A stretch of DNA of 40,681 bases from Neocallimastix lanati (nom. inval.) (taxonomy: Eukaryota; Neocallimastigomycota; Neocallimastigomycetes; Neocallimastigales; Neocallimastigaceae). The notes beneath the pieces are model-generated. The model saw only the letters and a list, made by a program, of their open reading frames with translations. It made no database searches and was not told the origin of the DNA. The stretch covers positions 1 through 40,681 of the forward strand of contig JACVTC010000347.1 of the NCBI GenBank assembly GCA_016946835.1, given 5' to 3'. Of the stretch, positions 15,217 to 40,681 are shown piece after piece (within the stretch, counting starts at the first letter, position 1; each line of letters begins with the position of its first letter). A program made the translations under genes and the position numbers.

Positions 15217-15222
15217 TTCAGT

Positions 15223-16262
15223 TGTTATGGTTCGAGGAATTCAAAAAAAAAATTATATAATATTAAAACACAAAAAAAATTTTATTCTTTCACAATAATT
15301 TTTATTTATTTATTATATTTTTATTTTAATTTTTATTTTATTTTTATTATTATTTTTATTTATTTATTTTATTTTTATTTTATTTTTATTATTATTTTTA
15401 TTTATTTATTTTATTTTTATTTTATTTTTATTATTATTTTTATTTATTTTTATTTTCTTTTTTTTCTTTTTATTTATTTATTTTTATTATTTTTATTTTT
15501 TTATTTCCCTTTTTTTTTTTTTTTTCTCTCCCCTAAAAAGGGGTTCCAAGGTAGTCAATTTATATCTTTTTGAAGATATAAAAGTAGCAAAACCTCTGGA
15601 AGTAGTTGAAGAGATGGAAAAACAATAGATTTTTAAATCTTATTGATTATTTCCTTATTGTAATAAATAGAAATTTTATCATTTCCTAATATTCAAATTA
15701 ACCAAAATAAATCTATAATATAAAAGATGCATTATAGAAAATAATTAAACAAAAAAAAAGAGAAGCAGTATTACAATAAAATTGAATACTTTAACTTAAT
15801 TTTGATACTAATTTAATATGTAATCTTATATATTAATTTGAATGACATAATAGAAAATAAAATACATTTATTAATATATGAAAAATCTTTTACAATTTTA
15901 AATACAGAAAATTTTATTTTATTTATTTCTTTCATTTCAATTATTTCTTAATTCGAAAGACAGAAATATTGATAAAGTTATTTAAGTTGTTTATATACAG
16001 GAATTATTCCTTATTTAGAAAAATAATACTAAAAGTAATTAGTACTATGTTATTGCTAAACTCTCATAAATTTAATTTACCTTTATAAGGAATGAACATA
16101 AATTTAAATTAAATTTTATGTATAAACTTAAATTTTCAGATCAAATAATATAGTAAAATTATTAATGTAAAGAATACATAAATTTATTAATATTTTAAAA
16201 ATCACCTTGACTAATTTAAAAGGTTTTTAATAAGAATCAATTTATTACTTCATTCTTTATCA
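15223..16262. mobile_element. Solo LTR C1
   Basis: About 1040 bp, TGTTATGG...TTTATCA. It matches C2 (17721-18785) throughout, with a few substitutions and one fewer tandem repeat. CAGT precedes it (15219-15222) and CAG(T) follows it, which fits a 4-bp TSD. No internal coding region lies between C1 and C2. It carries a 42-bp-period T/A repeat and two adjacent hairpins, CCCCT-AAAA-AGGGG (15530-15543) and a 10-bp stem at 15559-15582. Orientation not certain. Confidence 0.82.
15346..15470. repeat. 42-bp tandem repeat in LTR C1
   Basis: The marker ATTATTATTT recurs at 15346, 15388 and 15430, an exact 42-bp period. In C2 it recurs at 17845, 17887, 17929 and 17958, so the two copies differ by a partial unit. 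Confidence 0.75.
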
Positions 16263-16265
16263 CAG

Positions 16266-17054
16266 TGGTATGGTTCATATAATTTTAGGAATATAATAAT
16301 AATTAACACAAATAATAAAATTACAATAAAAAAAAAATAATTTGTTTTAAAATCAATATTTATTTATTTAAATTTATAAAAGAAAAATAATAATATAATT
16401 ATTTATTTAATAAAAAGAAAGTTGTTGATTATATTTTATTTCACTAAAATTACATGTATTTATATTTTTTTATCAAATTAAAATTTGTAAAGCCTAACTA
16501 TTTTTTTAATAAACTAATTACTAATTATTTTTATAAATAAAACATTTAAATTGAAATTGAATTATTATTTTAGTTAATAATATTATTGTTATAAATAGTA
16601 GTTATATATTATTGAATTATTAATTATTTAATAATAGTTTAATACTAATATATATAAAATAAAAATAAAGAGATTATACAGAATATTTTATTGTGGTTTA
16701 GTTAAATTTAGTAATTAAAAATAAATTTAAATTGATAACGAAAATTTTAATAACTAATTAAATAGATTTGATTATTTTCAATATAACATAATACAAAAGA
16801 AATATAATATTAATATATTAAGTGGGCAAGGACAATATTCTTGGCTAAAGATTTTTAATACATTATAATGGAATCGGATCGATAATTCAAAAAGGAATTA
16901 TAAGTTAATTAGTGATTTATTAACTTAAGATTGCTATTTAGTAATATTTGAAGAATATTGGAAAGTTCCAATTATATAGAATAGAATAATCTATAAGGTT
17001 AGAATAATTTATATTATTCTAGCACAATTAGTATTATTTGTTCATTCTGTATTA
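16266..17054 (-). mobile_element. Solo LTR D, family of element F
   Basis: 789 bp, TGGTATGG...CTGTATTA, matching both F LTRs with only a few differences. Flanked by ACAG on the left (16262-16265, using the last base of C1) and right (17055-17058). A solo LTR made by LTR-LTR recombination. Confidence 0.88.
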
Positions 17055-17058
17055 ACAG

Positions 17059-17716
17059 TGATACAGAACATTTAAAATATTCCATATCTAGTTATTTATT
17101 TATTTGGTCGTTTCTCTAGGGAATTATGACACAATAATATATTCTAATAAATATAAGAAAATAATTTATAATAATAATGTTTTATAATAATATTTTGTTC
17201 TTTATTTATTTTTATAATTTTACTCTTACATACATAATAATTTATTATTACATTCTCTTAATTTTATATAATTGTTAAAATAATTAATTAATATTATATT
17301 TTTATTAAACATATCTCTTTAACTATTAATTTCCTAATAACTTTATTTAAAAATACAATTTCATTATTAAATATATTTAACTATTAATATTTAAAATATA
17401 TTTCCTGAATAAAATATAATTATCAATATTTATAATATAATTCCTAAAACTATATAATTCTCAAAATAATATTTAAAATATAAAATAAAACTTATTAATA
17501 ATAATGATGAATTAATTTATTATCATAATAATAGAATCATTATTAATATAATTTATCTATTTTAATTATGATAAAAGAATTAACCATGCTTTTAAAAATA
17601 ATTATTTGAATTAACTATATATAAATTATTTTAATTATTATAACCAATAATATTTATACAATATTTCTAACCTAAATTTCTTACCTAAATCTTATTTTTA
17701 TAGTGGTATCGTATTA
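17059..17716. mobile_element. Solo LTR J, otherwise unseen family
   Basis: 658 bp beginning TGATACAG and ending CGTATTA, with ACAG on both sides (17055-17058 and 17717-17720). Called an LTR from its TG...TA ends and flanks; there is no second copy in the window, so this is less sure. No ORF. Confidence 0.6.
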
Positions 17717-17720
17717 ACAG

Positions 17721-18785
17721 TGTTATGGTTCGAGGAATTCAAAAAAAAAAATTTATATAATATTAAAACAAAAAAAAATTTTATTCTTTCACAATAATTT
17801 TTATTTATTTATTATATTTTTATTTTAATTTTTATTTTATTTTTATTATTATTTTTATTTATTTATTTTATTTTTATTTTATTTTTATTATTATTTTTAT
17901 TTATTTATTTTATTTTTATTTTATTTTTATTATTATTTTTATTTTTATTTTATTTTTATTATTATTTTTATTTATTTTTATTTTCTTTTTTTTTCTTTTT
18001 ATTTATTTATTTTTATTATTTCTATTTTTATTTCCTTTTTTTTTTTTTCTCTCCCCTAAAAAGGGGTTCCAAGGTAGTCAATTTATATCTTTTTGAAGAT
18101 ATAAAAGTAGCAAAGCCTCTGGAAGTAGTTGAAGAGATGGAAAAACAATAGATTTTTAAATCTTATTGATTATTTCCTTATTGTAATAAATAGAAATTTT
18201 ATTATTTCCTAATATTCAAATTAACCAAAATAAATCTATAATATAAAAGATGCATTATAGATAAGAATTAAACAAAAAAAAAGAGAAGCAGTATTACAAT
18301 AAAATTGAATACTTTAACTTAATTTTGATACTAATTTAATATGTAATCTTATATATTAATTTGAATAACATAATAGAAAATAAAATATATTTATTAATAT
18401 ATGAAAAATCTTTTACAATTTTAAATACAGAAAATTTTATTTTATTTATTTCTTTCATTTCAATTATTTCTTAATTCGAAAGACAGAAATATTGATAAAG
18501 TTATTTAAGTTGTTTATATACAGGAATTATTCCTTATTTAGAAAAATAATACTAAAAGTAATTAGTACTATGTTATTGCTAAACTCTCATAAATTTAATT
18601 TACCTTTATAAGGAATGAACATAAATTTAAATTAAATTTTATGTATAAACTTAAATTTTCAGATCAAATAATATAGTAAAATTATTAATGTAAAGAATAC
18701 ATAAATTTATTAATATTTTAAAAATCAGCTTGACTATATTAAAAGGTTTTTAATAAGAATCAATTTATTACTTCATTCTTTATCA
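17721..18785. mobile_element. Solo LTR C2
   Basis: 1065 bp, second copy of family C, flanked by ACAG on both sides (17717-17720 and 18786-18789), so it is an independent insertion and not the partner LTR of C1. Same paired hairpins and 42-bp repeat (from 17845). Confidence 0.85.
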
Positions 18786-19415
18786 ACAGTGGTACAGGAC
18801 TCTTCATTTATTTATTTTCAATAATAATATATTCTAATTAATTCTAATTAAACTTATTTATTTATTCCCGAATTTATCTAAATTAATTAAACTCAACATT
18901 AATATTCTAATGTTTTTAAATATTAACTAAGCTCTCTTTTATTTTATTTTAAACCCCTTAACTAACTTAATTATTATTTAAACTTAAAACTATTATATTA
19001 ACAACACAGCTTAACACTAAATTAAAACACCCTTAATTTATTTTACCTTATTTTATTCTAAAATTTAATTTATAAAATTTTGAGAGAGAGTTTTTAATAT
19101 TTTTTGATTTTACAAGTTATTTATAGAATTTAATAAAGTTTTTTAATTGGTTCAAATAAATTTTTAATTAATTAAAATAAAATAATGTATAAAAAATAAT
19201 AAAATAATATATAAAAATAATAAAAATTAAAGTAAAAATAAAAGTAAAAGTAAAAATAAAAATAAAAATATAAAATAAAAATAAAATATAAGATAAAAAT
19301 AATATAATAAAAATTAAAATAAAAATAGAGTAAAAGTAAAAATACAAATAAAAATTTAAAATAAAAATAAAGATATAAAATAAAAATAATATAAAAGAAA
19401 TAAAAACAAATATAA

Positions 19416-20066
19416 TGTTAAGTTGGTACTTAGATTAAAGGGTAAACTTGGTTGGAAGCCTTTAATCTAATAACCTTTTGATATTATTTTATTTTTTTAA
19501 ATTGATTTATTCAAATATAAAATATTATTTTATTATTAAACTTTTAATTAACTATATTTTTATTTAATATGTTTTATTATAAAGTTATCAGATTATTTGT
19601 AAATAATAATCTTACAAAGATTTAAAAAAGAATATTTTTTAGTTCTTTTATATTTTGAAAAACAATATAAAATATTTAATAATATATTTTAATAAATACT
19701 AATTTAAAGATAACAATATAAAATATAATTTTAATATATAAAGTAATAGAATAATACATATATAATATAAGATAATAAAAATATATAAAATAATATAATT
19801 AATAAAAAACAATTTTTATAAATAATATTCAACTATATTAATTAATATAAAAAGGGATAATGTTAATTAATATGTAATACAATATTAATCAATTAATATA
19901 TTAGGGGTTCAATAATGTATAAAAGGGATAATATTAATTAATATGTAATACAATATTAATTTGGTTATGAACGGTACAAGGATTTAAGGAGTACAAATTA
20001 TATTTATAATTAAATTGTTATTTTTGTAGTATTAAATATAAATTAATTTGTATCAAATCCTTGACA
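19416..20066 (-). repeat. 3' LTR of element E
   Basis: 651 bp, TGTTAAGT...CCTTGACA. Contains a perfect 12-bp inverted repeat TTAGATTAAAGG/CCTTTAATCTAA (19430-19441 with 19459-19470). The adjacent sense sequence CTTGGAGAGAGCGT is the likely polypurine tract. Confidence 0.92.
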
Positions 20067-20249
20067 ACGCTCTCTCCAAGAATTCGCATTCCAGGCGAAT
20101 TCAAGAATACTAATATTTTTGATATTAGTTTATTCAAAAGAGTACTCAAGAAGTATTTGAAATTCACTTGAACATAAATGTTCAATTGGCAATGTGAATT
20201 TCAAATTAGTTGGAGAAATAAATTGTGTTGAATATATATTTTTAAAGAA

Positions 20250-20305
<56 letters not shown>
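20067..20305 (-). other. 3' UTR of element E with hairpins and a 54-base A run
   Basis: Directly after the pol stop the sense strand has 54 A (plus-strand T run 20254-20307). Then come three perfect inverted repeats: a 13-bp outer stem plus 8-bp inner stem (20155-20206), ACTAATAT/ATATTAGT (20109-20129), and GAATTCGC/GCGAATTC (20080-20102). No gene. Confidence 0.8.
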
Positions 20306-20311
<6 letters not shown>

Positions 20312-23300
20312 ACTATATGAGATCGAGACTGGTTTCCTATTATTATTAATGTATTTAATAAAAATATTTTGGTTTCTTGGATTATCTTCAACTTCAGAAG
20401 AAGATACCCAATTATAGGAGGAACGATATTTATAACGGATTTTATATTCGTATTGTTTCTTCTTATAGTTAGTTCTAAAACCCGCAATTTCAATAATATC
20501 CTTAATAGACTCAGGATCTTTATATCGTTTTCTAAACTTTTCAGGCACTGGTGTGAATGGTTCGAGTTCAGAGACGTGGAAAACATTATGATGCTTAGGA
20601 AAGGGTGAATTTTTAAGTTCAATTTCATAATTATTATTATGTAAAACATTGGTTACTTTGTATGGACCAAATTTGCATGGAGCTAGTTTTGAGCTTGATT
20701 CTATATTTAACGAAGGGGGAGCTTGAATCCACACCAAATCGTCAATGTTGTAAGAAGGAGCGGTAATTCTTTTTCTATCAGCAGAACGTTTATATAGCTC
20801 TTGGGATCGGAGAAGAACTTCTTTAACATGATTAAAACTTTCATAAACTTTTTGAACCATTTTATGATTAATGTTACAAGTAGGGAGTAGTGTATATTCA
20901 TCCATGTAAGGATGAAATCCATAGTTGATAAAAAAGGGAGTTTCGTTAGTGGAAGGGTGAATTGAGTTGTTATAAGCAAATTCAGCAAGTGGAAGAAAAT
21001 CAACCCAATCATCATGATAGAAAGATCTTGAGAAACAGCGAAGGTATTGTTCGATGAAAGAATTGCATCGTTCAACTTGACCTACGGTTTCATGGTGGTC
21101 AGTAGTAGCTATTTTCGATTTAATATTTAATAAGAATAGAAATTCTTGCCAAAGTTCACTCGTAAACTGTGAACCTCTATCCGTAATAATATCATAGGGT
21201 AGACCATGGAGCTTATAGATATTATTGATAAAAGCTTTGGCTGTTTGTACGGAATTTGGAATATCTTTGAAGGGAATAAGGTGTATCATTTTTGAAAATC
21301 TATCAACTACAACCATAATCACCGCATTACCTTTGGATGGTGGAAGACCACATAAGAAATCAATTTCGATTGATTTCCAAGGTCTTTCTGGAACGTCAAG
21401 CGGTTGAAGTAACCCAAATTTTCGGTGCCTAGATTTTTTGTTTCTCATACATGTTTCACACGACTTTACAAAATTCTTAACATCATCTTCCATCTTGGGC
21501 CACCAAAAGTTTCTTGAGATCAACTCCAAAGTTCTTTTGACACCAAAATGACCCGCAGCAGGTTTCTCATGATAACGAGTTAAAATATCTAAACGAAGTT
21601 GATCTGGTATGTAAATAAGATTGTTGTATAATATTAAATCATTTTCTAATTTAAACTTATTCATTTTGCGAAATGGTTTATAAGGGAAACCTTGAGAGAC
21701 ATTATTTTCAGAAAAATATATACGAAGATCCTCAGCAACCTTATCATTCTTTAAGTTTATTTTAATATTATTGAGAAGATCGTTAGTTATACTAATTAAA
21801 CATGGGATTTTACCAATATTCTTACTGTCTAAGATAAACTCAGGTTTATCCTCTATATCTTCCTTTTGGTAGTCTGGTCTTCTGGATAACGAATCGGGTT
21901 TGCCATTCTTTTTACCTTGGCGATAGATAAGTTCAAAGTCGTATTCTTGGAAGAATAGATGCCAACGATGTTGACGTTGATTACCTATCTTCCCTCCAAG
22001 GGTATATAGAAGATTTCTATGGTCAGTAAAAACTTTAATCTTGAATTTAGCACCTAACAAAAGGTGACGCCATGATGAGAAAGCTTCTTTAATTGATAAA
22101 AGTTCCTTATCGGTAATCGAATAGTTTATTTCGGCATTGTTAAGACTACGAGAAAAATAAGCAATAGGATGAAGCTTATTATCATTATCATACTGGGAAA
22201 GAACTGCTCCAATAGCAAAGTTACTAGCATCGCACTCAACAATAAAAGGTTTTGTTAAGTCAGGATGCATGAGGAGAGGGGAAGAAGTTAAACGTTTTTT
22301 GAGAATTGAGAAGGAGGTATCACAATCTTTAGACCAAACAAACTTCCTTCCTTTCTTGGTTAAAGCATGCAAAGGTTTAGCAATAGCAGCAAAATTCCTT
22401 ACGAATCTTCTATAGTAATTGCAAAGACCAAGAAACCTTTGAACCTCTTTTACGTTTTTTGGAATGGGCCATTCTTTGATTGATTTGATCTTCTTTGGAT
22501 CAGTGGACACACCAGAACCAGAAATGATATGTCCGAGGAATTCGACTTCCTCTTTATCGAATTCACATTTCGAAAGTTTAGCATATAAATTATTGTCAAT
22601 AAGCTTTTTGGAACCTCACGTACAGTTTGATGATGATCATCTAATGAATTAGAATAAATTAGAATGTCATCTAGGTAGAGTATTACCGATTTCTCTAAGA
22701 ATGGACGAAGGACAGAGTTAATAAAAGATTGGAAGATTGCAGGTGCATTTTTAAGACCAAATGGCATTACTAAATATTCGTAATGTCCATACTTAGTACG
22801 GAAAGCTGTTTTATATTCATCGCCTTCCTTTATACGAATTAAATTATATGCGGAGCGCAAGTCCAATTTAGTAAAGTACTTGGCTCCTTTGACTCGTTCA
22901 ATAATGTCGTTGATGAGCGGTAAAGGATAGGAATTTCTAATAGTAACCGCATTTAAACGTTTGTAGTCAACGCAGAGTCGGAGAGAACCATCACTCTTTT
23001 TTTGAAAGAGAACAGGATAGCCGGCTGGGGAGTGAGATTCTCTAATAAATCCTTTCTTTTCGTTTTCCTTTATGTAATCTTTTAAAACTTCTGATTCTTC
23101 CAATGTAAGCGGGTAGATTGGTCCATAATGTAAAGTAGCACCTGGTTGAAGATTGATCTCACAGTCCGTTAAACGATGGGGAGGAAGCTTATCTGCTTCC
23201 TTTTTACTGAAGACTATTGCAAGGTCTTTATACTGTTCAGGAATACGCTCAATATCAGGTTCTTCAGAATCCTCTGATACCTTATTTGAAAGAAAAGAAT

Positions 23301-23874
23301 AGATTAAAAAGTTGTAATTATAGGGTAATCCTTCATAAAAATTAATTGAATTCGCATTTTGTTTAAAATTCTTTATAATTCTTGATTTAAATTTTGAGAT
23401 TTTAAAAGTAGAGTAAAGATAATGATTATCATAACTAAAATGTATTTTATAGTTTTTCATAAATTGATTTCCAAGGAGTAAATCCACTGGAATATGTTTT
23501 GACACAAGGAATTTTTCTTTAAATTTGATTAAATGAAACGTATTGTTAATTTTGATTTTTAGTTGAAAATTTAAAGACACAAATTCATTAATGGAATCTG
23601 TATCACCACTAATACCTTTTATATATATTTTATTATTAAGTTTTTGAGGTACAAGATTTAACCGAGAGATTAAATTGGTAGAAATAAAATTGCAGTAAGA
23701 ACCACAATCTAACATTGATTTGGTTTGTAATTTAATGTTTTTGTTCCTTTTGTTTATTGTTGGGATAAATGATTTAAACAAAAAGAAAGAATTAGGAAGA
23801 GGAGGGTTTAAAGTTGGATAATTATATTGAATAGTTTTAATCGGAGAGGACTTCTTGGGAAGTCCATTATCTAG
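20306..23874 (-). pseudogene. pol: Element E Pol with chromodomain-like C-terminus, one frameshift
   Basis: Read in -1 frame from 23874. Protease LDCGSYCNFIS (D-C-G); RT from about 23200 with YLDD (near 22665). The frame then breaks at a 5-base run (22605-22609), where one base appears missing, just after the catalytic aspartates. It resumes through the RT thumb, RNase H (VECDASNFAIG, TDHRNL), integrase zinc motif (HEKPAAGHFG...CETC), DDE in EIDFLCGL, TDRGSQF and GQVERCN, and GPY-type module (CKFGPYKV). After HNVFHVSELEPF comes a segment (IKDIIEIAGFR..QYEYKIRYK..NWVSSSEV) that resembles a chromodomain, known in chromoviruses to bind histone marks. The stop at 20306-20308 abuts a 54-base A run. 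Confidence 0.88.
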
Positions 23875-23880
23875 TTTTTT
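23848..23880 (-). promoter_or_regulatory. Programmed -1 frameshift signal, gag to pol, element E
   Basis: A AAA AAC (23880-23874) in gag frame, immediately before the gag UAG (23873-23871), then an 8-nt spacer and a perfect 7-bp stem with a tetraloop, GGACUUC-CCAA-GAAGUCC (23865-23848). The pol frame is the -1 frame and open here. Confidence 0.85.
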
Positions 23881-25095
23881 GAGTTAATTTTTTGGACTTC
23901 GGTAACATAATTTTCTCGGTTGTTGTAACTGGAATTAACCTTAGATTTATTATTATGGAAGTTATTATTTTTACTATGATTGTAATAATTGTTATTCTTC
24001 TTATTCTTGTTTTCACTATTGGGATAAGAATGAGAGTTCTTTCTCTTATAATTTTTATTGCTGGTTAATTGATTTATCTTTAATTTAGTTTCTTGAGAAG
24101 ATTCAAACAATATGCACTTTGTTGTAATTTCTTCTATTTTCTCTGGAAACTTCTCCATTTTATTAATTTCTTCTTTAAATTTTGGATGAAGACCATTATA
24201 GAAAAATAATACTAATGGTTCTTCAGGCCAACCAAGATCAGCTGTTAGTTTACGGAAAGAATCGATATAGTCCTTAATATTACCATGAGAATGTTTAAGA
24301 TTTATTAAATTAATTTTCTTTAACTTTTTGCTGAAAACATCAGGAAAAGCTTCTTTTAATTCATTAAGAAGAGCCTCTAGGGAAGCAGGAGGACTACTGG
24401 AATATTTTGTTTGGTACCAACTTCTAGCAGCTTCTCTTAATCTTGATTGCACAAAGTTGATTTTCGAATCTTCAGGCCAAGACTTACATGGATAGGTTTT
24501 TAAATGTGTCCCCACACAGTTGACAGAAAAGTTCGGTTTCAGAAATATCACCTGAAAACAAACCTGGATCGGGAACTTGAGGAATATTAATAGGGTAAGC
24601 AGATTGCATGATAACATCATGATCATTGTCATATCTTGTAGTAGTTGAGATATTATCATCGAAAACAGAATGGAGGTTTACCGTAGGATTTCCAGATGTC
24701 AACGGTATCGACGAGGTAGCACCAGAAGAAGTATTTTCTACTTGAGTTTTATTACATAATTCATGCTTAAAATAGAGGGTAGCCTTCTTCAAAGATTCTA
24801 AAGAGGCCAATATTTCATTATTCATTTTATCATAAGCTCCGAATTGTTTCATTACCTCTTGATGGTAATTTTGTAAGTCTTCTTTGGAAACGAAGTTTTC
24901 ATTCACCCCAGAAACTATACTATTACAAGCTTGTGAGGTATCATTTCTTAACTGTTGAACACCTTCTGCTAAGGTGGTACAAGCTTGGGTGGCTTCGGAT
25001 CGCAATTGTTGTACTGAGTCTTCTTTATTCATATCCATTTCTTCATCCGATCTAGCTGAATACATTCCCGAGCGTCTTAGGCCAATTTTATGCAT
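23871..25095 (-). pseudogene. gag: Element E Gag, one frameshift
   Basis: ATG at 25095 is only 34 nt from the 5' LTR. The N-terminus has a duplicated motif (VQQLRSEATQAC, then VQQLRNDTSQAC) of coiled-coil type. The capsid region reads PDPGLFSGDISETELFCQLCGDTF in one frame, and YPCKSWPED..FVQSRLREAARSWY in the next. The switch falls at a 5-base run (24497-24501), where one base seems extra. The C-terminus is Asn/Lys/Tyr-rich and basic with no zinc knuckle. It ends on the AAAAAAC slippery site. Confidence 0.85.
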
Positions 25096-25118
25096 TCCAA
25101 GGAAGTTTCTAAAATAGC

Positions 25119-25129
25119 GGTAAGATTAT
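25119..25129 (-). other. Self-priming PBS of element E
   Basis: The sense sequence directly after the 5' LTR, ATAATCTTAC (11 nt if the last LTR base is counted), is complementary to the transcript at 25319-25329 inside the LTR. No TGG-type tRNA site is present next to the LTR. Confidence 0.6.
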
Positions 25130-25780
25130 TGTTAAGTTGGTACTTAGATTAAAGGGTAAACTTGGTTGGAAGCCTTTAATCTAATAACCTTTTGATATTA
25201 TTTTATTTTTTTAAATTGATTTATTCAAATATAAAATATTATTTTATTATTAAACTTTTAATTAACTATATTTTTATTTAATATGTTTTATTATAAAGTT
25301 ATCAGATTATTTGTAAATAATAATCTTACAAAGATTTAAAAAAGAATATTTTTTAGTTCTTTTATATTTTGAAAAACAATATAAAATATTTAATAATATA
25401 TTTTAATAAATACTAATTTAAAGATAACAATATAAAATATAATTTTAATATATAAAGTAATAGAATAATACATATATAATATAAGATAATAAAAATATAT
25501 AAAATAATATAATTAATAAAAAACAATTTTTTTAAATAATATTCAACTATATTAATTAATATAAAAAGGGATAATGTTAATTAATATGTAATACAATATT
25601 AATCAATTAATATATTAGGGGTTCAATAATGTATAAAAGGGATAATATTAATTAATATGTAATACAATATTAATTTGGTTATGAACGGTACAAGGATTTA
25701 AGGAGTACAAATTATATTTATAATTAAATTGTTATTTTTGTAGTATTAAATATAAATTAATTTGTATCAAATCCTTGACA
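25130..25780 (-). repeat. 5' LTR of element E
   Basis: 651 bp, matching 19416-20066 apart from about one base. Contains the 12-bp inverted repeat near its sense 3' end (25144-25184), the self-primer complement (25319-25329) and a TATA box (25359-25370). Confidence 0.92.
25359..25370 (-). promoter_or_regulatory. TATA box of element E LTR
   Basis: Sense AAAATATAAAAG, about 37 nt upstream of the sequence predicted as the self-primer, which would then be the RNA 5' end. The identical box is in the left LTR. Confidence 0.6.
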
Positions 25781-30647: not shown

Positions 30648-31552
30648 TAATTTTCATAAAACTTCTTGCGGTTATTTTCCAATATAGAATTTAATTTAGG
30701 ACAGTTTCGTTTGGTATGTCCTTCATTGCTACAAAACCAGCAAGTACTAATTTTCATTTCTTTCATCTTGTTAGTGATATTTTCTATAGATACATTTTTG
30801 TGGGTTTTTGGTTTGTTAAAATCATTTGAAATGTTCTTATTAAAATTACTTTTAGAGTTAAGGAGATTGTAACGAGTCTTATCATAATATTCAGTACTAT
30901 TTTTAATAGATAAACGATCAACTTTTTCAGCTATAGCGAACGCTTTGGTAATAGAAATATGGTCTTTAAGCATAACCTTTCTCCATGCGTCAGGATTATT
31001 GGTTAAGGAATCTGCATAATCTAAAACACTAATTTTTCTTCTTCTCTTTTTATCCAATTTATGGTACAAAGATCTATAACGGACATTAAAATCTTTAACT
31101 TTCTCGTTCTTCTTTATTTTCATGGAACGCAATTCTCGCAACAAGTTGGTTTGATCTTCTTTAAGTCCATAAAAAGTCTTCAGATGATTTATTATTTCAT
31201 CAAGGCTTGGGTAGGTGTTAGTAGATTCACTTTCTTCATCATCTTCTCCTTCACTATCGCTATCGAAATCAGAATCTTCATCTTCAGTAAGGTCATTTCC
31301 ATCTTCTAGTTCTTGGATAATTTCTTTTGGTTCTCCAGAAGCCGTTAATATACAAGCAGTAAAAATAGTTTCAGGATCCTTGATATGTTGGTATTTTATC
31401 CATGCCTTTAACTCATTTGCCCAGGAGTTGATGTCAAGGTTTTGTTTAGTAAGCTTTTCAAAATCTTTTAATTCTTTCTTTAATTCTCTGAAGCTAAGCT
31501 TACTTTCTGGAGTACTCTCTGTTGGAGTACTGGAAGTACTGGATGTTCTCAT
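30635..31552 (-). CDS. gag: Element F Gag with zinc knuckle
   Basis: 305 residues from ATG 31552 (Ser/Thr-rich start). LSFRELKKELKDF..NLDINSWANELKAW aligns with A Gag; an acidic Asp/Glu/Ser block follows (about residues 85-110), then a basic region (KKNEKVKDFNVRYRSLYHKLDKKRR) conserved in A, and the zinc knuckle CWFCSNEGHTKRNC. Intact. Confidence 0.92.
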   Translation of the reverse strand: MRTSSTSSTPTESTPESKLSFRELKKELKDFEKLTKQNLDINSWANELKAWIKYQHIKDPETIFTACILTASGEPKEIIQELEDGNDLTEDEDSDFDSDSEGEDDEESESTNTYPSLDEIINHLKTFYGLKEDQTNLLRELRSMKIKKNEKVKDFNVRYRSLYHKLDKKRRRKISVLDYADSLTNNPDAWRKVMLKDHISITKAFAIAEKVDRLSIKNSTEYYDKTRYNLLNSKSNFNKNISNDFNKPKTHKNVSIENITNKMKEMKISTCWFCSNEGHTKRNCPKLNSILENNRKKFYENYLNH

Positions 31553-32037
31553 AAAATAAAATTTATTGTATCTATAGAATGCTAAACCTCGTAATGTATA
31601 AATTGTTATAAAAAAGTAAAAATAAAAAAAAAATTAAAAAAAATAAATCTTTTAACTAATAAAATTATTAATTATTTATTATTATTAATCATTTATTAAA
31701 TTATAATAATCGTGCAATCTGATAGTACACACTGTCTGACGTGCAGCTTACCTCTTGAAAGGTGTCATGCCACGCGTGTGCCACGGTTACTATTTTCAAT
31801 ATAAAAAATAGCAGTCCAGAGCCTACTAGCCCAATTACTATGTAGGATAAACTTAACCCGGAAATCTATGCACGAATATTAGTTTAATTTAATATTAATT
31901 AATATTTTTAACAATTAATAATAATTAGTTAAAAATATAAAAATTGTTTTCTTTTTTAAAAAAATATTTGTTTTATTAGAAAAATTATTTATTAATATTA
32001 TAATTTTATCCCCAATGTATTAATTTATTATTATATT
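31553..32037 (-). other. Leader of element F
   Basis: About 0.5 kb between gag and PBS. Apart from the conserved block (31711-31876) it is plain A+T-rich sequence. Lacks the four repeats and the G+C-rich block of A. Confidence 0.75.
31711..31876 (-). ncRNA. Conserved leader block shared with A (candidate packaging RNA)
   Basis: 166 bp matching 6724-6887 with few changes, including GATAGTACACACTGTCTGAC, the palindrome CACGCGTG (31771-31778) and ATTACTATGTAGGATAAACT. A small length difference near 31753-31761 separates two almost unchanged halves. Role inferred from conservation and position. Confidence 0.6.
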
Positions 32038-32054
32038 CCCCGATATCTCCACCA
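32038..32054 (-). other. Primer binding site of element F
   Basis: Identical 17-mer to that of A (sense TGGTGGAGATATCGGGG), but 8 nt from the LTR instead of 6. Confidence 0.75.
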
Positions 32055-32062
32055 ATTTTTCA

Positions 32063-32849
32063 TGGTATGGTTCATATAATTTTAGGAATATAATAATAAT
32101 TAACACAAATAATAAAATTACAATAAAAAAAATAATTTGTTTTAAAATCAATATTTATTTATTTAAATTTATAAAAGAAAAATAATAATATAATTATTTA
32201 TTTAATAAAAAGAAAGTTATTGATTATATTTTATTTCACTAAAATTACATGTATTTATATTTTTTTATCAAATTAAAATTTGTAAAGCCTAACTATTTTT
32301 TTAATAAACTAATTACTAATTATTTTTATAAATAAAACATTTAAATTGAAATTGAATTATTATTTTAGTTAATAATATTATTGTTATAAATAGTAGTTAT
32401 ATATTATTGAATTATTAATTATTTAATAATAGTTTAATACTAATATATATAAAATAAAAATAAAGAGATTATACAGAATATTTTATTGTGGTTTAGTTAA
32501 ATTTAGTAATTAAAAATAAATTTATATTGATAACGAAAATTTTAATAACTAATTAAATAGATTTGATTATTTTCAATATAACATAATACAAAAGAAATAT
32601 AATATTAATATATTAAGTGGGCAAGGACAATATTCTTGGCTAAAGATTTTTAATACATTATAATGGAATCGGATCGATAATTCAAAAAGGAATTATAAGT
32701 TAATTAGTGATTTATTAACTTAAGATTTCTATTTAGTAATATTTGAAGAATATTGGAAAGTTCCAATTATATAGAATAGAATAATCTATAAGGTTAGAAT
32801 AATTTATATTATTCTAGCACAATTAGTATTATTTGTTCATTCTGTATTA
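32063..32849 (-). repeat. 5' LTR of element F
   Basis: 787 bp, partner of 25836-26622. Sense TATA box TATAAATAC at 32251-32259. Its last 3 bp are part of the TSD of G. Confidence 0.92.
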
Positions 32850-32851
32850 AC

Positions 32852-33831
32852 TGTAATAATCATACTAAGTTCTATCACTAAATATGATTATTAACTTCAA
32901 CTTAATGACTAATTCATTAAGTTGAGAAATAAAATAAAAATAAAAACTTTACCTAAAAAGAGAGTTTATTATAAAATTAATTATAATAACAACACAAAAA
33001 GTAAAAGAAGGAATATTTAGATAAATTTGGTTTTAAGAAATATGTTTTTTGAATAAAATGTTTTATTAATTTATTAAAATTTAAAATATAAAATTGCTAT
33101 TATTATAACTATATTTTTATAATAATAACTCTTGATTTCTTAAAGGGAAATCAAGAGCCTTATTTATATTTTTTTATGGAAATAAGGTTAAATAAAAAGG
33201 TTTTCTAATCTTAAAAAATATCTTATCTAGAAAAAGATTAGAAGAAAAAACTAGATAAGTTTTTTGATCGATATTCTATTCATATCGATCATCGTATATA
33301 TTAAGTAAAACCAAATATATTATTTTATATTTGGATAAAACCTTAATATATCGATTTTCTAAATTTTAATTTAGATCATCAAATAAAAGGAAAAATAAAT
33401 AATAACCGGAATGATCTAAATTATTCTATTCTATCTTTCTAAATATTATTTTTAAAATCTAATCTAAACTTATTAACATAAAACTATCTTTAAACTAGAA
33501 TACAGAATTATAAAAAATACAGAAACTTATTAATTGTTCTTTTAAATGTACAATGTAAAAAATAAATAAAACTAATGTTTACATTAACTTGATAATTAAA
33601 TGAATAACTAAATAAAATTAATAATATTAATAAGTGTACATATAATAATTATTTAAATAAATTTTCTAATATTATTTAAGTGTATGAATAATTACAATTA
33701 TAATAAATTTGATAATAATATCTCAATGTATGAATTAATTATAATTTAAATAAATTTATAATTATTATCAATAATTATAAAGACTAAGAAATAATAATTA
33801 TTTATTAGTAAATAATTATTATTTCTTACAT
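32852..33831 (-). repeat. 3' LTR of element G, rich in perfect inverted repeats
   Basis: 980 bp, TGTAATAA...TTCTTACA. Contains at least seven perfect inverted repeats of 8-20 bp; the longest, a 20-bp stem with a 4-base loop (33786-33829), ends 2 bp from the LTR edge. The pol stop lies only 8 bp away. Confidence 0.92.
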
Positions 33832-33839
33832 TGCTCCAT

Positions 33840-36800
33840 TTATAATGATGGTTCTTCCAGTTCTTTATTTCTTTTTACGTAAGGCTCCAACTGTGAGATA
33901 TGAAATACCGGATGGAGTCGTAAATTTTCCGGGAGTTCCAAACGGTAGTTCATTCTTTCCCTCTTTTCGATTATTTTAAACGGGCCTAAATATTGAGAGG
34001 ATAATTTCTTAGCTGGTTCATTTGTAAAATAATGTCGTTTAAGATAAACTAAATCATTGACTTGAAAATTGGGGCCAGTAGATTTTCTTGTATCACCATA
34101 TTTTTTAAAATCTTCTTTGGCTTTGCTTAAATGTTGACGAAGAGCATCAAAATGAGCAGCCCAGTCTCTTGTAAGAACTGAAGCATTATCTTTAAGTAAA
34201 ATAGGAGGAGAATCAATAACAGCATTAGGATGAAAGCCATAATTAGCAAAGAAAGGAGAATGACCAATAGACTTGTTCATCGAATTATTATAAGCAAATT
34301 CACAGAGGGGTAAGTAGAAGCACCATTCACTTTGAGCAGAAGAACAGTAGCATCTAAGATATTGTTCAATGACTGCATTAGCTCTTTCCACTTGACCATT
34401 TGATTGCTGATGATGAGCTGTAGCAAGTCTTGGTTTAGCACGAACAGCGGAGCAAAGAGAAGTCCAAAATTCGGATGAAAACTGGGAACCATGATCGGAT
34501 ACGATGGTTTTTGGAAAACCATGATATTTAAAAACATTAAACAATAGGAGCTTGGCAGTAAGATCAGCAGAAGGGACGTCGGCACAAGGCATTAAATGAA
34601 CCATTTTTGTTAAATGGTCAGACACCACCATTATGCAAGTACAGTTTTGCGAAGTTGGCAGGTAGACAATAAAGTCGACCCCTATTACTTCCCAGGGTTT
34701 AGAAGGAATAGGAAGTGGTTGTAACTTACCATAGGGTTTATGCCTGCGGATTTTACTTCGACAACAAACATCACACGATGCAACATAATTCTGTACGTCT
34801 TTCTTCATATTGGGCCACCAGTAGTACCTTTGAAGTTTTTCAAAAGTCCTATCTACCCCCTGATGCCCACTAGTTGGTGCGTCGTGGAACGATTTTAATA
34901 GCCTGGCCTTTAACGCGGATGGGACAATAATACGTTTTTGAAAGTGAAGTACACCTTCAATGTAACTGAACAAAGAACTTTTTAACTTTTTATCATGTTG
35001 TTTGATTTTTTTAAGAATTTCATTGCAGTATTTATCAGCTTTTTGGGCTTCAATTAAACCGCTAATATTATCGCTAATTGTGTAACAGAAAGCTTTTTCA
35101 CTAATAACTGACTGCGAAACAACCGGAATATCTTTTTTATAATCCGGCCTTCTTGAGAGTGCATCTGGTTTACCACCTTTAGCACCGGGTCTATAAGCTA
35201 CCCTGAAATCAAACTTGGAAAGGAATAAGCTCCAACGAATTTGCCTTTGATTTAAGTGTTGGGGCTTCTTTAAATATAACAGATTTTTATGATCGGTCAG
35301 GACTTGCACAGGGAACTTGGCACCTTCTAGATGGTGCCTCCAGGTATCAAAAGCAGTAATAATTGCAAGGAGTTCCTTGTCATAAATAGTGTAATTTAAC
35401 TCAGCTTTATTAAGGGACCTGGAGTGGAAAGCAACTGGATGAAGTAAATTATCCTTATCGCAAACCTGAGAAAGGACGCAGCCAACAGCAAAGTCACTAG
35501 CATCCGTTTCAACTATGAATTCTTTATCATGGTCTGGGAATATTAAGACTTCATCAGTTTCAAAGGCACTCTTTAATTTATTAAATGCAGAATCAGCTTC
35601 ATCGTTCCAAATAAACTGATTTTCTTTTTTGAGTAGCTTCCTTAATGGTTCCATGTTTTTTGCAAAGTTTTTAATAAATTTTCTGTAAAAATTGCACAAA
35701 CCCAGGAAACTTTGAAGTTCCTTTAAATTTTTAGGGATTGGCCACTCCAAAACCGATCTTACCTTGTTTCTATCCATTCTTAATCCATTAATAGATACTA
35801 CGAAGCCAAGAAAAGTGGTTTCTTTAACATGAAACTCACACTTTTCCAATTTTGCATAAAGACCATTCTTAATTAAAAGAGAAAGCACTAATCTGACATG
35901 CTTAACGTGATCTTCTAAGTTCTTTGAGTAAATTATAATGTCATCTAAATAAACTTGGGCGCAAGTTCCAATGACTTCATCAAGAACGTCTTGAATAAAA
36001 CGTTGGAAAACCGAAGGGGCATTACGAAGACCAAATGGCATTACGAGATATTCATAATGACCAAGAGGAGTTCTAAATGCAGTTAAATATTCATTACCTT
36101 CTTTTACTCTGACTAGATTGTAAGCGGATCTGAGATCTAGCCGAGTGAATATTGAAGCTCCTTTGAAAGACTCAATCAAATCACTGATTCTTGGGATAGG
36201 ATAACTATTACGGATTGTAATAGCATTGAGTCTTCTGTAATCAACGACAAGCCTTAAAGTTCCATCATGCTTCATAACAAAAAGAATTGGAGCACCTGCG
36301 GGAGATTTAGATTTTCTTATAAATTTTTTCTTCAAGTTTTCTTTAATGTATTTCCTTAAAGCCTTTAATTCTTTAACGGTTAACGAGTAAATCGGGCCAT
36401 AGTAGAGTTGTCCTCCAACAATAAGATCGATAGAAATATCATACTTCCTGTGTGGAGGAAGTTTCTCAGCTTCTTTCTTTTCAAAAACAATTTTGAGATC
36501 AGAATAAAATTTTTTAATAATCGATTCATTTCTTGATTTTTCTTTGTTGCCTTCAGTAGAAGTATCCATTGCAGCACAGACATCCTCGTAGAGTTCATCT
36601 TCAGAAATAGTAGTAGGAATTATGGAATCCAAAGTTTCTTTAGCAGTATAAGAGTCCTCATCCAGCATTGGAGCTGTAATATTAGAATTTTGAATAATAA
36701 ATTTGTTTTTCCTTGATGAAGGACAATGAGATTTACAATGTTTTCCCAAAAAGTAGATTTTATTCCTTTCATAGTCAATGAAAGGATTGTGTTTTCGTAG

Positions 36801-37150
36801 CCAATCTCTACCCAAGATACCATTGACTCCTTCAAGTGATATATTTCCAATGCAAAATTCAAAATTCTCAGAGTGATCCAAAGTCTTCAATTTAAGTGGT
36901 TTAGTGGTTTGCTTAATGGTCATGCATTTGTCATTAGGCAAACTGAATCTTAATTGGAGAAGAGAGACCAGAAGTAGGGATTTTATTAGCATTAACAAAA
37001 TTCTTGCACAAGAAACTTCTGCCGGAACCAGAATCAATAAGAATGTTAGCTCTAAGGTTTTTATTATTACAGGAGATGAAGAATGTAGTTGTTACTGTTA
37101 ATTTTCCCGAAGGAGTGTAATTAGCTGACAAGATTTCCTTATTTGGCTTG
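33840..37150 (-). pseudogene. pol: Element G protease-Pol, frame broken after the protease
   Basis: The protease frame contains ILIDSGSGRSFLCKN (normal D-S-G, near 37035) and runs to a stop at 36934. The remainder continues in another frame from about 36950, so one small indel lies near 36940-36955. Then RT with YLDD (near 35945), RNase H (VETDASDFAVG, TDHKNL), integrase zinc motif (HDAPTSGHQG...CDVC), D-D-E in GVDFIVYL, SDHGSQF and GQVERAN, and GPF (QYLGPFKI). It ends after HPVFHISQLEPYV with a short Glu-rich tail, so no chromodomain. The protease frame is +1 to gag, the switch falling at a 7-base run (37151-37157). Confidence 0.86.
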
Positions 37151-37953
37151 TTTTTTTCTGAATTTAGATTTCTTAAAGCGGTTTTCCGTTTTTGTAAGTT
37201 CTTTTCTTTTTCTATGGAAAGACTTACTAGTTTTACTCTTATTATCGGATTTATGACGAATGCAGCTTTCAAGATAGCATTTTTTGTCAATGCCGATAAT
37301 CGTATTGGTAGCTTCAAACAAGGTATCGGGTTTATTAAGTTTATCAAATTCTTCTCGAACCCGATCAACGAGACCCTTTCCAATGATATCGATTAGTACT
37401 TCGTCAGGCCATCCCAAACGTCCAGCTAACCTTCGGAACTCAATAGTGTATTCGGCAGCTTCACCAAGACGAAGCTGTTTTAATCTCCAAAGTTTGTCCA
37501 TAATTACATACTTTTGTTTTTTCTCACTACCCGAATCAAAATTTTCCAAAAGAAGAGCTCTGAATTCATCAAATCTTAGGGATTTTAAAGTACCGTCACC
37601 AAGTAAAGAGAGACCCCATCTTCTTGCAGTCCCTGCAAGCTTATTTATTACAAATGAATTTTTTGATTCGTCGCTTCTAAAGGATTCTGGGTGTTCCTTA
37701 AAGAAATCTTCGCTTTGAATGATGGTTTCGAGGACAGTTGGTTTACTTTTTCCCTCGTTTTCTTTAACTAATATTCCTCCTGGAGAAAAGAATGCAGGAA
37801 TAAATCAGTAATAGCTGTAATGAGTTTGGAAGCACTGCTGTTCTGGGTGATGTGATTTGTAGTGAGATTATTTGAGTTATTATTAATAAGGAGATTATTT
37901 GGATTATCATCCTCTACAGTGAGATTATTTGAGATATCACTATTGAATTCCAT
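37139..37953 (-). pseudogene. gag: Element G Gag, one frameshift
   Basis: Start chosen at ATG 37953 (MEFNSDISNN) because the upstream extension is hydrophobic leader-type sequence. The first frame stops at 37768; the capsid part (SFVINKLAGTARRWG, AAEYTIEFRRLAGRLGWPDE, typical chromovirus Gag) is in the next frame. The break sits at a 4-base run (37786-37789). The C-terminus is Lys/Arg/Ser-rich with no zinc knuckle. The stop at 37139 follows the 7-A run that leads into the protease frame. Confidence 0.83.
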
Positions 37954-38427
37954 CTTCCTAAATCTAAAAATTAAATTGATAAAATAAATAATAAAATAAA
38001 GATAAGTGTAATATGTAATATTTGACAAGTAAATATAAATAATTATAACAGCAAAATTATTATAATTTTATAATTAAGCTTCTGATTTGATTATTAATAT
38101 TTTAAGTTTTATTAAAAAAAATTATTTTGCATGCTGCTGTTCACCAACCGGCTTGGTCGATGAGCTGAATGTAGATTTCAGTTCTACCAGCGAGGGCCAG
38201 GATGCAAAAAATTTTATTAATAAGAGGCTCAAAACAAAATAAACAAGACTTTCCTTAATTATTCAATTATAAAATTTTCTCTCTGAAATAATTATTAAAT
38301 AACTTATTATTTTAAAAATTATAATTTTCTATCATTAACTATATTTATCTAATAATTTATTTAATTTACTAACTATTTTATTTTATATTTTGTTTATTTA
38401 TTTTTTATATCAATTCGTTGATACTCA

Positions 38428-38480
<53 letters not shown>

Positions 38481-38689
38481 TTAATTTATTCAATTTATCT
38501 ATTTACTAATTATTTCATTCATTTATTACTCTATAATTGATTTATCTATTTAATAATTATTTAATTTATTTATTTTTCTATAATTGACTTATCCTTTATT
38601 AAATCATTAATTTATTTAATTTATTTATTTACTAATTTTATTTACGAATTTTATTTACTAATTTTATTTACTAATTTTAATTATTTACT

Positions 38690-38741
<52 letters not shown>

Positions 38742-38760
38742 AAATTATTAATTTAAAACT

Positions 38761-38802
<42 letters not shown>

Positions 38803-38931
38803 GCCACTCTAGCTATATATTATTATTTTATTCTAATATATATATTTTTAATAGACTAATTCACTATTCCAATGTTACACTATTCTAAAAATTTTCCACA
38901 TTTTATCTAACCCTAAACTAATCTAATCTAG
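37954..38931 (-). other. Leader of element G, structured block plus long A runs
   Basis: About 1 kb without a gene. Holds one G+C-rich structured block (38125-38209) and three long T runs on the plus strand (38433-38474, 38692-38737, 38763-38800), that is poly(A) in the transcript, between degenerate TTTATTTACTAA-type simple repeats. Confidence 0.78.
38125..38209 (-). ncRNA. Structured G+C-rich leader element of G
   Basis: An outer 8-bp pair TTTTGCAT/ATGCAAAA (38125-38132 with 38202-38209) encloses two hairpins, ACCAA-CCGGC-TTGGT (38143-38157) and GTAGA-TTTCAGT-TCTAC (38171-38187). It has near-average G+C inside sequence that is otherwise almost only A/T. One sense frame is open through it (28 codons), so a peptide cannot be excluded. 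Confidence 0.55.
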
Positions 38932-38943
38932 AAGAGTTATTAT
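38932..38943 (-). other. Self-priming PBS of element G
   Basis: The 12 nt directly after the 5' LTR (sense ATAATAACTCTT) are perfectly complementary to the transcript at 39214-39225 in the LTR. No tRNA-type TGG site is found here. Confidence 0.65.
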
Positions 38944-39921
38944 TGTAATAATCATACTAAGTTCTATCACTAAATATGATTATTAACTTCAACTTAATGA
39001 CTAATTCATTAAGTTGAGAAATAAAATAAAAATAAAAACTTTACCTAAAAAGAGAGTTTATTATAAAATTAATTATAATAACAACACAAAAAGTAAAAGA
39101 AGGAATATTTAGATAAATTTGGTTTTAAGAAATATGTTTTTTGAATAAAATGTTTTATTAATTTATTAAAATTTAAAATATAAAATTGCTATTATTATAA
39201 CTATATTTTTATAATAATAACTCTTGATTTCTTAAAGGGAAATCAAGAGCCTTATTTATATTTTTTTATGGAAATAAGGTTAAATAAAAAGGTTTTCTAA
39301 TCTTAAAAAATATCTTATCTAGAAAAAGATTAGAAGAAAAAACTAGATAAGTTTTTTGATCGATATTCTATTCATATCGATCATCGTATATATTAAGTAA
39401 AACCAAATATATTATTTTATATTTGGATAAAACCTTAATATATCGATTTCTAAATTTTAATTTAGATCATCAAATAAAAGGAAAAATAAATAATAACCGG
39501 AATGATCTAAATTATTCTATTCTATCTTTCTAAATATTATTTTTAAAATCTAATCTAAACTTATTAACATAAAACTATCTTTAAACTAGAATACAGAATT
39601 ATAAAAAATACAGAAACTTATTAATTGTTCTTTTAAATGTACAATGTAAAAAATAAATAAAACTAATGTTTACATTAACTTGATAATTAAATGAATAACT
39701 AAATAAAATTAATAATATTAATAAGTGTACATATAATAATTATTTAAATAAATTTTCTAATATTATTTAAGTGTATGAATAATTACAATTATAATAAATT
39801 TGATAATAATATCTCAATGTATGAATTAATTATAATTTAAATAAATTTATAATTATTATCAATAATTATAAAGACTAAGAAATAATAATTATTTATTAGT
39901 AAATAATTATTATTTCTTACA
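38944..39921 (-). repeat. 5' LTR of element G
   Basis: 978 bp, matching 32852-33831 except for small length differences such as one T near 39449. Contains the self-primer site (39214-39225), an 11-bp hairpin next to it (39221-39249) and a TATA box. Confidence 0.92.
39253..39260 (-). promoter_or_regulatory. TATA box of element G LTR
   Basis: Sense TATAAATA in AAAATATAAATAAG, about 35 nt upstream of the predicted RNA 5' end at 39225. The distance fits an ordinary TATA promoter and so supports the self-primer call. Confidence 0.6.
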
Positions 39922-39927
39922 TTAACA

Positions 39928-40681
39928 TGTTATGGTTCGGGTTTTATTAGAATTTTATTTAATTATTTATTTTTAATATTTTTTTCTGTCTACATTTTAA
40001 TTATTGAAAAACTTCACTTATTTATACTTTTTGAAAAAAAATAAATATGTAAAGCCTTTCTACATTTTATTATCATATTTAAAAAAAAATATTTACTATT
40101 ACTAATTACTTAAAATTTTATATTAATTTAAATTAACTAATTCATAAGTATTTTTATTTTAATAAATTTTGTTTACATAATTTTATATTATTTTTCATAT
40201 ACTAAAACTAAATTATTTAATATATACGAAAAGTAACAAACAAAATTTAAAAAGATTTTACAGAAAAATAAAGTTATTTTAATCAAGAATGTTAATATAA
40301 TATTCTTATATTTTATATAAAATAAATTTAAAAACTATAATATATTTAATATTTATTATTAATCAATTAAGATTTGATTTTATTTGTGGGGAATAAAAAT
40401 ATAAAATAATCAATTTAAAAATAAAATAAAATACTAAAAAGAATACAAGTTTAATATTGATACAATATAATAATAATATAATAATATATTTGAAAATAAA
40501 AATAAAATATTAATATTGATAATAAACACTTTAATAAAATAATAAAATTTAAGGTTAAATTATAGATATTGATATTAATAATAAAAATATAGAATTATTG
40601 ATAATATTTTAGAATCTTTTAATAAAAATAAAAAAAATTATTTAGAAAATATTTTAGTATAGAAAATATAGTAAAGTAATA
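39928..40681. mobile_element. LTR H, left end only, runs off the window
   Basis: Begins TGTTATGGTTCG like family C but then diverges from it. Shares with the other LTRs a sense TATAAATAAG box (near 40018-40027) and a GTAAAGCC motif also in the F LTR. No ORF. Whether it is solo or part of an element cannot be seen. Confidence 0.55.

Follow-up and report, generated by a model that had tools for sequence, protein, structure and literature searches.

Why should LTRs of several retrotransposon families stand head to tail on one contig of Neocallimastix lanati, parted again and again by the same four bases? The window, by which we mean the whole stretch of 40,681 nucleotides analysed here, is an entire 40.7-kb contig and is built of repeats. 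A preliminary description had placed five exact ACAG spacers in it, and all five were found at the positions given there (Table 1), each between the right end of one LTR and the left end of the next. No further ACAGTG occurs at an LTR joint of the window; the sole other copy, at 37916, lies off any such joint. That recognised LTR edges should enclose the same 4-mer five times is far beyond chance.

Architecture of the window

Self-comparison of the window confirmed the repeat structure. C1 and C2 belong to a single LTR family (95% alike), as do D and F (99% alike), and the chain is longer than had been described, with the full-length elements A and B on its left and the K LTR on its right (Table 1). 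TTCA stands on both sides of A and of B and joins the two. The window elements share one orientation, with the minus strand as sense; all 11 frames of at least 150 aa lie on that strand, so that TGNTA marks the sense 3' ends and TATYA the sense 5' starts. The form TATYA-ACAG-TGNTA that had been proposed for every joint fails at the C1/D joint, which is one A short. H carries a 5-bp duplication, TTAAC, that borrows the last three bases of F, and the F/K joint without H reads GTATTA-ACA-TGTTATGG. The LTR designated I is a solo LTR interrupted by the nested element N, which has a 5-bp duplication (TATAA) and is a later insertion outside the chain. Reverse transcriptase (RT), RNase H and integrase (IN) follow in gypsy order in one frame in A, B, F and H and in two frames in N, which also has an SH3_Tf2-1 domain. 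No Chromo match at E 0.001 was found in the scanned frames of A, B and F, and these three are accordingly not classed as chromoviruses.

Table 1 Features of the 40,681-nucleotide window in plus-strand order.
Feature	Position	Strand	Remarks
Host-LTR start, first 12 bases TGTAACGAAATC	479..490	+	gypsy family, tRNA-like unit in LTR
TTCA, left target duplication of A	491..494	.	same TTCA at 8390-8393
Element A, full-length Ty3/gypsy	495..8389	-	LTRs 99.13% alike outside gaps
TTCA spacer A/B	8390..8393	.
Element B, full-length Ty3/gypsy	8394..15216	-	LTRs 99.83% alike outside gaps
TTCAGT	15217..15222	.	TTCA, right duplication of B; CAGT, left duplication of C1
C1, solo LTR	15223..16262	-	122 genomic copies of C1 left edge
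ACAG, left duplication of D	16262..16265	.	A shared with C1, whose last base it is
D, solo LTR, F family	16266..17054	-	99% to F LTRs
ACAG spacer D/J	17055..17058	.
J, solo LTR	17059..17716	-	left edge also adjoins C in L042
ACAG spacer J/C2	17717..17720	.	sole ACAG among 122 C edges
C2, solo LTR	17721..18785	-	95% to C1
ACAG spacer C2/I	18786..18789	.
I, solo LTR split by N	18790..25831	-	pieces 18790-19415 and 25786-25831
N, gypsy-type, nested in I	19416..25780	-	LTR pair 99.7%; TATAA on both sides
ACAG spacer I/F	25832..25835	.
Element F, full-length Ty3/gypsy	25836..32849	-	LTRs identical
TTAAC, 5-bp duplication of H	32847..32851	.	overlaps last 3 bases of F
Element H, gypsy-type, SH3_Tf2-1, at F/K joint	32852..39921	-	LTRs identical outside gaps
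TTAAC (right duplication of H) and A	39922..39927	.
K, start of a further LTR	39928..40681	-	runs past contig end; left edge also beside C in L007, L008, L053

tRNA genes and tRNA-like units as insertion sites

The 199-Mb genome was searched for the same LTR edges (loci are cited by L numbers). Among the 36 external right edges of K and F (40 flanks minus four internal edges), 29 have an LTR-like TG edge 3–5 bp away, five face an RNA polymerase III (Pol III)-type unit, and two (L150 and L153) do neither. Those five flanks and the non-LTR right flanks of C hold a tRNA gene or units with an A and a B box.

The flanks of tRNA genes were examined from the opposite side. Samples comprised 20 of at least 63 tRNA-Arg, 20 of at least 40 tRNA-Met and 20 of at least 40 tRNA-Ala places on several contigs, with tRNA-Met and -Ala identified by ARAGORN and tRNA-Arg and -Asn by our own reading. 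Seven of the 60 flanks, being identical over 60 bp to another, were removed before counting. The remainder were compared with a library of 24 LTR ends taken from other places, with up to 3 mismatches allowed. Where no tRNA-Asn led the gene, 24 of 46 distinct upstream flanks carried a library LTR end, in every case 13–18 bp from the tRNA gene. LTR ends were found in none of the seven upstream flanks in which tRNA-Asn stands in front, and in 1 of 60 flanks of the downstream control. Fifteen of the 24 matches were ends of A, B, C, F, J, K or the L009 family, the right end always facing the gene; no inverted left ends of these families were found at the tRNA flanks. By eye, approximately 18 of the 22 unmatched flanks end similarly, and L082, L083, L084 and L101 do not. 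A loose BLAST search of tRNA flanks had been dropped in favour of the library test because it also matched downstream flanks (26/40), in AT-rich low-complexity sequence.

A gypsy family that encodes a chromodomain carries a tRNA-like unit just inside its LTRs, a label that rests on what we take to be the A- and B-box consensus. The left flank of the window consists of the initial 12 bases of such an LTR, whose length is ~645 bp. The uninterrupted site predicted from this flank and that of L158, TGTAACGAAATCTTCAGTTAGTAAAATT, was found at 158 places elsewhere in the genome with up to 3 mismatches (control, 0), and the 100 of these that were listed are all exact. Of 40 sampled copies of the tRNA-like LTR, 10 are filled at the same place, 29 are uninterrupted and one is unclear; a single orientation is shared by nine of the filled copies, the exception being L196 with its inverted-looking edge. 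One C copy (L012/L013) is likewise inverted at its tRNA-like unit. At L050 the order is LTR start-GAGT-C-GAGT-second LTR-GAGT-tRNA-like unit.

In the non-LTR right flanks of F, K and C, the distance between the LTR end and the start of the best-scoring A box is 20–22 bp in 7 of 15 cases, 15–17 bp in another 7 and 27 bp in one. By our reading, the 15–17 bp cases are one unit type, with a second A-box-like string 5 bp further on. The A and B boxes of L199 are 43 nt apart, and 0 of 500 base shuffles scored as well. Rfam gave no tRNA match in L199, L201, L159, L182 or L168, and among the tRNA-like units only L147 scores as a tRNA there. Judged from their sequence, the tRNA-like units are putative sites of Pol III transcription and TFIIIB binding.

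The frame beside the tRNA-like LTR of L201, the one copy examined, contains SH3_Tf2-1 and Chromo matches, which places the host LTR family found at 479 among the chromoviruses. LTR starts of this family occur in pairs ~4.4–6.4 kb apart, one pair (5.3 kb) enclosing the chromodomain frame. Two other assignments of TGTAACGAATC were rejected, a SINE leader and a copia LTR (by our reading, copia-type pol lies to its left in L050 and L054): its 242 copies, many of them paired, together with the adjoining frame that encodes a chromodomain, showed an LTR of gypsy type. An LTR family with long inverted ends was also dropped, as the family at L035 may just be inverted.

Probable growth and origin of the stack

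The right neighbour is the younger one in all nine informative overlaps (L009, L040, L057, L015, L036, L039, L051, D/C1 and H/F), and the Pol III units at other loci lie on this same, younger side. The left ACAG of D takes the last base of C1, and D is therefore read as younger; the CAGT duplication of C1 alone is also compatible with the reverse order, and the duplication of D itself decides. A, B and C1 could not be placed in order of arrival. LTR-pair identities in plus order are 99.13% (A), 99.83% (B) and 100% (F). C copies are full-length in 7 of 8 cases touching a Pol III-type unit versus 11 of 24 touching an LTR (one-sided P 0.047), a split that was sorted by hand, with look-alike sites merged by hand, and that excludes copies seen at one end only (e.g., L005 and L006) and the inverted L012/L013. 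As an indication of age this share is weak, being seen for C only and with a marginal P.

Exact 4-bp duplications are present in 20 of the 28 C copies read at both ends. In this count L043, read into a third LTR, was scored as a miss, and L041/L045 and L020/L021/L046, which resemble copies of single sites, were all included. The window families combine a near-constant short distance upstream of tRNA genes or tRNA-like units with a 4-bp duplication and almost only one orientation.

We put the probability at roughly 0.86 that the chain arose by the stacking of Ty3-like retrotransposons, all inserted at one Pol III start site. By analogy with Ty3, the integrase would be positioned by Pol III factors (TFIIIB). 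Every later copy would then insert at the same handful of bases next to the Pol III unit and push older copies outward. Such re-use would recreate the 4-bp spacer and yield LTR-4bp-LTR joints with one repeated 4-mer, occasionally shifted by 1–2 bp (TTCA, CAGT, ACAG). The LTR start TGTAACGAAATC at 479 is the candidate founding target. Since the contig ends inside K, the anchor of this chain lies outside what was read; its Pol III unit is predicted to the right of K beyond the contig end, where TAGTAAAATT and then an A and a B box should close the stack. Most external right edges of K and F adjoin a further LTR, so that the model requires deep stacks. The preliminary description was right on several points: insertion is targeted and happens repeatedly, it makes 4-bp duplications, and it takes place again at the same bases next to an older LTR. 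Of the observations it had named as counter-evidence, varied duplications elsewhere were found, as regards ACAG, and unrelated flanks were not, most of the flanks that were read consisting of another LTR edge or a Pol III-type unit.

A mixed, self-reinforcing process, in which stacks are founded at a Pol III unit and capture of the next integrase is then aided by the LTR ends at the joint, is in our judgement unlikely. The joints do resemble a near palindrome of LTR ends, and stacks look deep, yet 29 of the 40 sampled tRNA-like LTR sites are still uninterrupted. Re-use of a Pol III start site alone, however, yields identical joints, and uneven occupancy may stem from age, chromatin or unit activity. 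Recognition of LTR–LTR junctions is hence unneeded for the joints, with a helper role possible.

In the preliminary description, LTR–LTR joints were themselves what the integrase, or a host factor, prefers; if recognition of LTR edges or joints were the main cause, no Pol III unit would be needed. Most external C, K and F edges read indeed adjoin another LTR edge a few bp off. We nevertheless consider this proposal very unlikely: filled and uninterrupted sites place the founding insertions at Pol III-type units, the LTR ends keep an almost fixed distance from tRNA genes, and the informative overlaps are one-sided (9/9). What the insertions were found to share is a nearby tRNA gene or tRNA-like unit, lying on one side at a short and nearly constant distance.

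Head-to-tail joining through recombination, cDNA concatemers or assembly error might be suspected in a window that is a whole contig of repeats. Recombination is expected to leave shared LTRs without duplications, whereas the joints here link different families with matching target duplications, and LTR-spacer-LTR joints also occur on contigs of 0.5–4 Mb; this origin is highly improbable. Finally, ACAG as a preferred target core, suggested by the five joints in the window, is practically excluded, and for family C is ruled out, since ACAG stands outside 1 of 122 genomic C edges and the 20 duplicated copies show 16 different sequences.

Relation to known systems

Ty3 of Saccharomyces cerevisiae is described as inserting at the Pol III start region with a precision of a few bp, with a 5-bp duplication and in both orientations (PMC8632968, PMC5911963). 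The elements studied here share with it the gypsy-type pol domain order and Pol III start-region insertion, start sites being inferred from the 13–18 bp tRNA-gene spacing, and the best solved-structure relative of F is the Ty3 Gag-Pol. They differ in their 4-bp duplication (20/28 C copies; A and B), in the almost single orientation of the window families, and in that sites are shared among several families, whose copies pile up. DGLT-A of Dictyostelium is reported to be a gypsy-type element without a chromodomain that inserts ~15 bp upstream of tRNA genes in either orientation, with twenty insertions detectable in D. discoideum (PMC5006619, PMC5911963). The upstream distance and the gypsy type without a chromodomain are alike as features, whereas here families of hundreds of LTR edges form multi-family stacks. 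A Pol III-type unit within an LTR, as in our host family, is reported for the short non-coding TRIMs Helenus (tRNA-like) and Cassandra (5S-like) (PMC10886601). The host family, in contrast, encodes a chromodomain, has LTR starts ~4.4–6.4 kb apart, and contains units that serve as insertion targets.

Pol III targeting and tRNA-like LTRs are thus each already known, while multi-family stacks and LTRs as mobile landing pads look new; in the portions of the open-licence literature covered, stacks of this sort were not found. This reading replaces a junction code by a simple rule, that a target surviving insertion is struck again at the same bases. Such stacks could reveal in what sequence different families inserted, with no need of a molecular clock, and the presence of uninterrupted and filled sites among many copies makes the targeting rule measurable. 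We tentatively suggest, with somewhat less than even confidence, that the tRNA-like Pol III promoter predicted in the LTRs of one gypsy family may be a mobile landing pad that scatters safe harbours for Ty3-like families. If so, target and parasite would spread together, load would be drawn from real tRNA genes, and every pad would hold an ordered insertion record. Should tRNA-like LTRs assemble Pol III factors, retrotransposons would become targets for each other, an ecology between mobile elements that was not found described for these fungi in the same portions of the literature.

At 5S genes, the upstream flank ends in an LTR-like end in one of a sample of only seven (L204). H-type ends face tRNA genes in the opposite orientation in L096 and L109.

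Organization of the window and its target duplications

The window is an entire contig (C276) with a G+C content of 24%, from a genome of 199 Mb in 762 contigs. All 11 large frames lie on its minus strand, and the F pol shares 50–75% identity with proteins labelled Orpsp1_1, a label that we take to denote an anaerobic gut fungus; the host is therefore probably one. The five ACAG joints of the preliminary description were exact on re-reading. ACAG is not a special target, however: of the 122 C left edges in the genome, only the one in the window has it outside. Both ends were read for 28 C copies, and 20 of these show exact 4-bp duplications, with 16 different sequences. The ACA of the K joint is compatible with AACA (the right end of K lies off the contig), and no loss of a G has to be assumed.

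Features of the window in plus-strand order
Feature	Position	Description	Bases before next feature
Frame	1-483 (plus)	resembles retroelement protease region by eye; broken by host LTR at 479
Host LTR start	479-490	first 12 bases of LTR	TTCA
A		gypsy-type, full-length	TTCA
B		gypsy-type, full-length	TTCAGT
C1		solo LTR, family C	(A)CAG
D		solo LTR, F family	ACAG
J		solo LTR	ACAG
C2		solo LTR, family C	ACAG
I		solo LTR, split by N	ACAG
N	19416-25780	gypsy-type with SH3_Tf2-1, inside I; duplication TATAA
F		gypsy-type, full-length
H		gypsy-type with SH3_Tf2-1
K		LTR start, runs off contig

LTR ends at tRNA genes and tRNA-like units

At fetched loci of the same genome, the C right end directly precedes tRNA-Met (L017), a cut gene that we read as tRNA-Ser-like (L025, L041, L045) and tRNA-like units (L029, L031, L032, L052, L058). 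A first look yielded 9278 tRNA candidates, of which 63 were scored. The survey covered flanks of tRNA-Arg, tRNA-Met, and tRNA-Ala genes, 20 per kind, from which duplicates were then removed. An LTR end from our library lies 13–18 bp upstream of 24 of the 46 genes without a preceding tRNA-Asn and in none of the 7 distinct flanks with one. The controls gave 1/60 downstream (any position, either strand) and 37/3001 at random in LTR-rich loci (earlier version of the library). For 15 of the 24, the match is to A, B, C, F, J, K or the L009 family, and it is their right end that is turned toward the gene; an inverted left end faces the gene only for H (L096, with L109 as a diverged case). The F primer site, TGGTGGAGATATCGGGG, is the complement of this genome's tRNA-Ala 3' end plus CCA and also occurs in A and C, while that of B differs.

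As side observations, what we read as tRNA-Asn immediately precedes tRNA-Arg at L059-L062, L064-L066, L073, L076, and L077. The region C555:188248-399007 of this genome (G000) holds a tRNA array with wider spacing of its units: more than 30 tRNA genes of a single kind, all with high scores and several ~540 bp apart. A 5S rRNA gene (L204) has an LTR-like end 9 bp upstream; none was seen by eye at 6 other 5S flanks.

The window left flank ends in TGTAACGAAATC-TTCA, and GT stands behind A and B. TGTAACGAAATC is the start of LTRs ~645 bp long; it and the related TGTAACGAATC have many copies, many of which form pairs separated by kilobases, and a purine-rich stretch precedes the 3' member. In one copy that was read, the sequence next to the LTR encodes SH3_Tf2-1 and a chromodomain. 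In all four LTR types tested, an A box begins at about base 27-38 and a B box follows 43-49 nt later; 0 of 500 shuffles of L199 were as good. At L158, TCAG-TTAGTAAAATT adjoins a tRNA-like unit. The uninterrupted site predicted by joining the window left flank to the L158 flank was found at 158 places with ≤3 mismatches (control 0), all 100 of the matches listed being exact (L199-L202 were read). Therefore, the cuts made by A and B (TTCA), C1 (CAGT), and D, J, C2, I, and F (ACAG) lie no more than 2 bp from a single point.

Among copies sampled by LTR start, a gypsy LTR lies just upstream of the boxes in 4/20 and 15/20 are uninterrupted (L176 is ambiguous); sampling by the tRNA-like part gave 6/20. 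Nine of the 10 inserted LTRs have the same orientation, the exception being L196, where the unit is faced by an edge that is a left edge elsewhere. L050 holds a short stack in full (LTR start / GAGT / C / GAGT / second LTR / GAGT / tRNA-like unit), with uninterrupted counterparts including L182, L185, and L186.

Growth of the stacks

Among the first 30 C left edges listed of 122, 11 were internal and 17 of the 19 external ones have an LTR-like end 2-7 bp off by eye. Right flanks were read for the first 40 external-looking places listed among the 303 edges of K and 460 of F; 4 of them proved internal. Of the remaining 36, 29 start by eye with an LTR-like TG edge at a distance of 3-5 bp, and several of these edges come from window families; a tRNA gene or tRNA-like unit follows in 5, and 2 (L150, L153) fit neither class.

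Duplications that overlap an adjacent element do so at the end of the one on the left (L009, L040, L057, D over C1, H over F), and at short spacers the C duplication seems to have been cut by the element on the right (L015, L036, L039, L051). CAGT of C1 alone fits the reverse order too; ACAG on both sides of D settles it. L020/L021, L046, and L047 do not discriminate between the two orders. Taken together, the left-neighbour overlaps and cut C duplications indicate that the stack grows rightward, toward the side bearing Pol III units at other loci. The LTR pair identities (A 99.13, B 99.83, F 100%) agree with this, on few points. Full-length copies make up 7/8 of C beside Pol III-type units vs 11/24 beside LTRs (one-sided P 0.047).

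In published work, TFIIIB directs Ty3 to a position 2-3 bp ahead of the start site (PMC8632968), and DGLT-A lies ~15 bp before tRNA genes (PMC5006619). The window's families probably use the same route. One point would be used repeatedly because the Pol III unit would survive each insertion and the bases beside it would be re-created. Re-use of the intact target would thus suffice for self-reinforcement, and the recognition of LTR joints proposed in the preliminary description is unneeded. Pol III targeting (PMC5911963) and tRNA-like LTRs (PMC10886601) are each known on their own, and no report of multi-family stacks on tRNA genes and tRNA-like LTRs was found in the literature searched.

The left edge of an LTR family beginning TGTAAGAATCTATAATTATTTGTTAGC (L021, L035, L046, L048, L095) occurs in both directions, inverted at L035 with 99% identity over 99 bp; either the family inserts in both orientations or it has long inverted copies as ends, and L043 and L196 show a family open to the same two readings. 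At L053 and L153, C and F used the same TTAA in different relative orientation, next to an LTR end that apparently comes from a chromodomain element. Three F-family LTR right ends on G000 C38 (508416, 509205, 509994) are spaced by exactly 789 bp, which would fit threefold stacking of a single family with short spacers.
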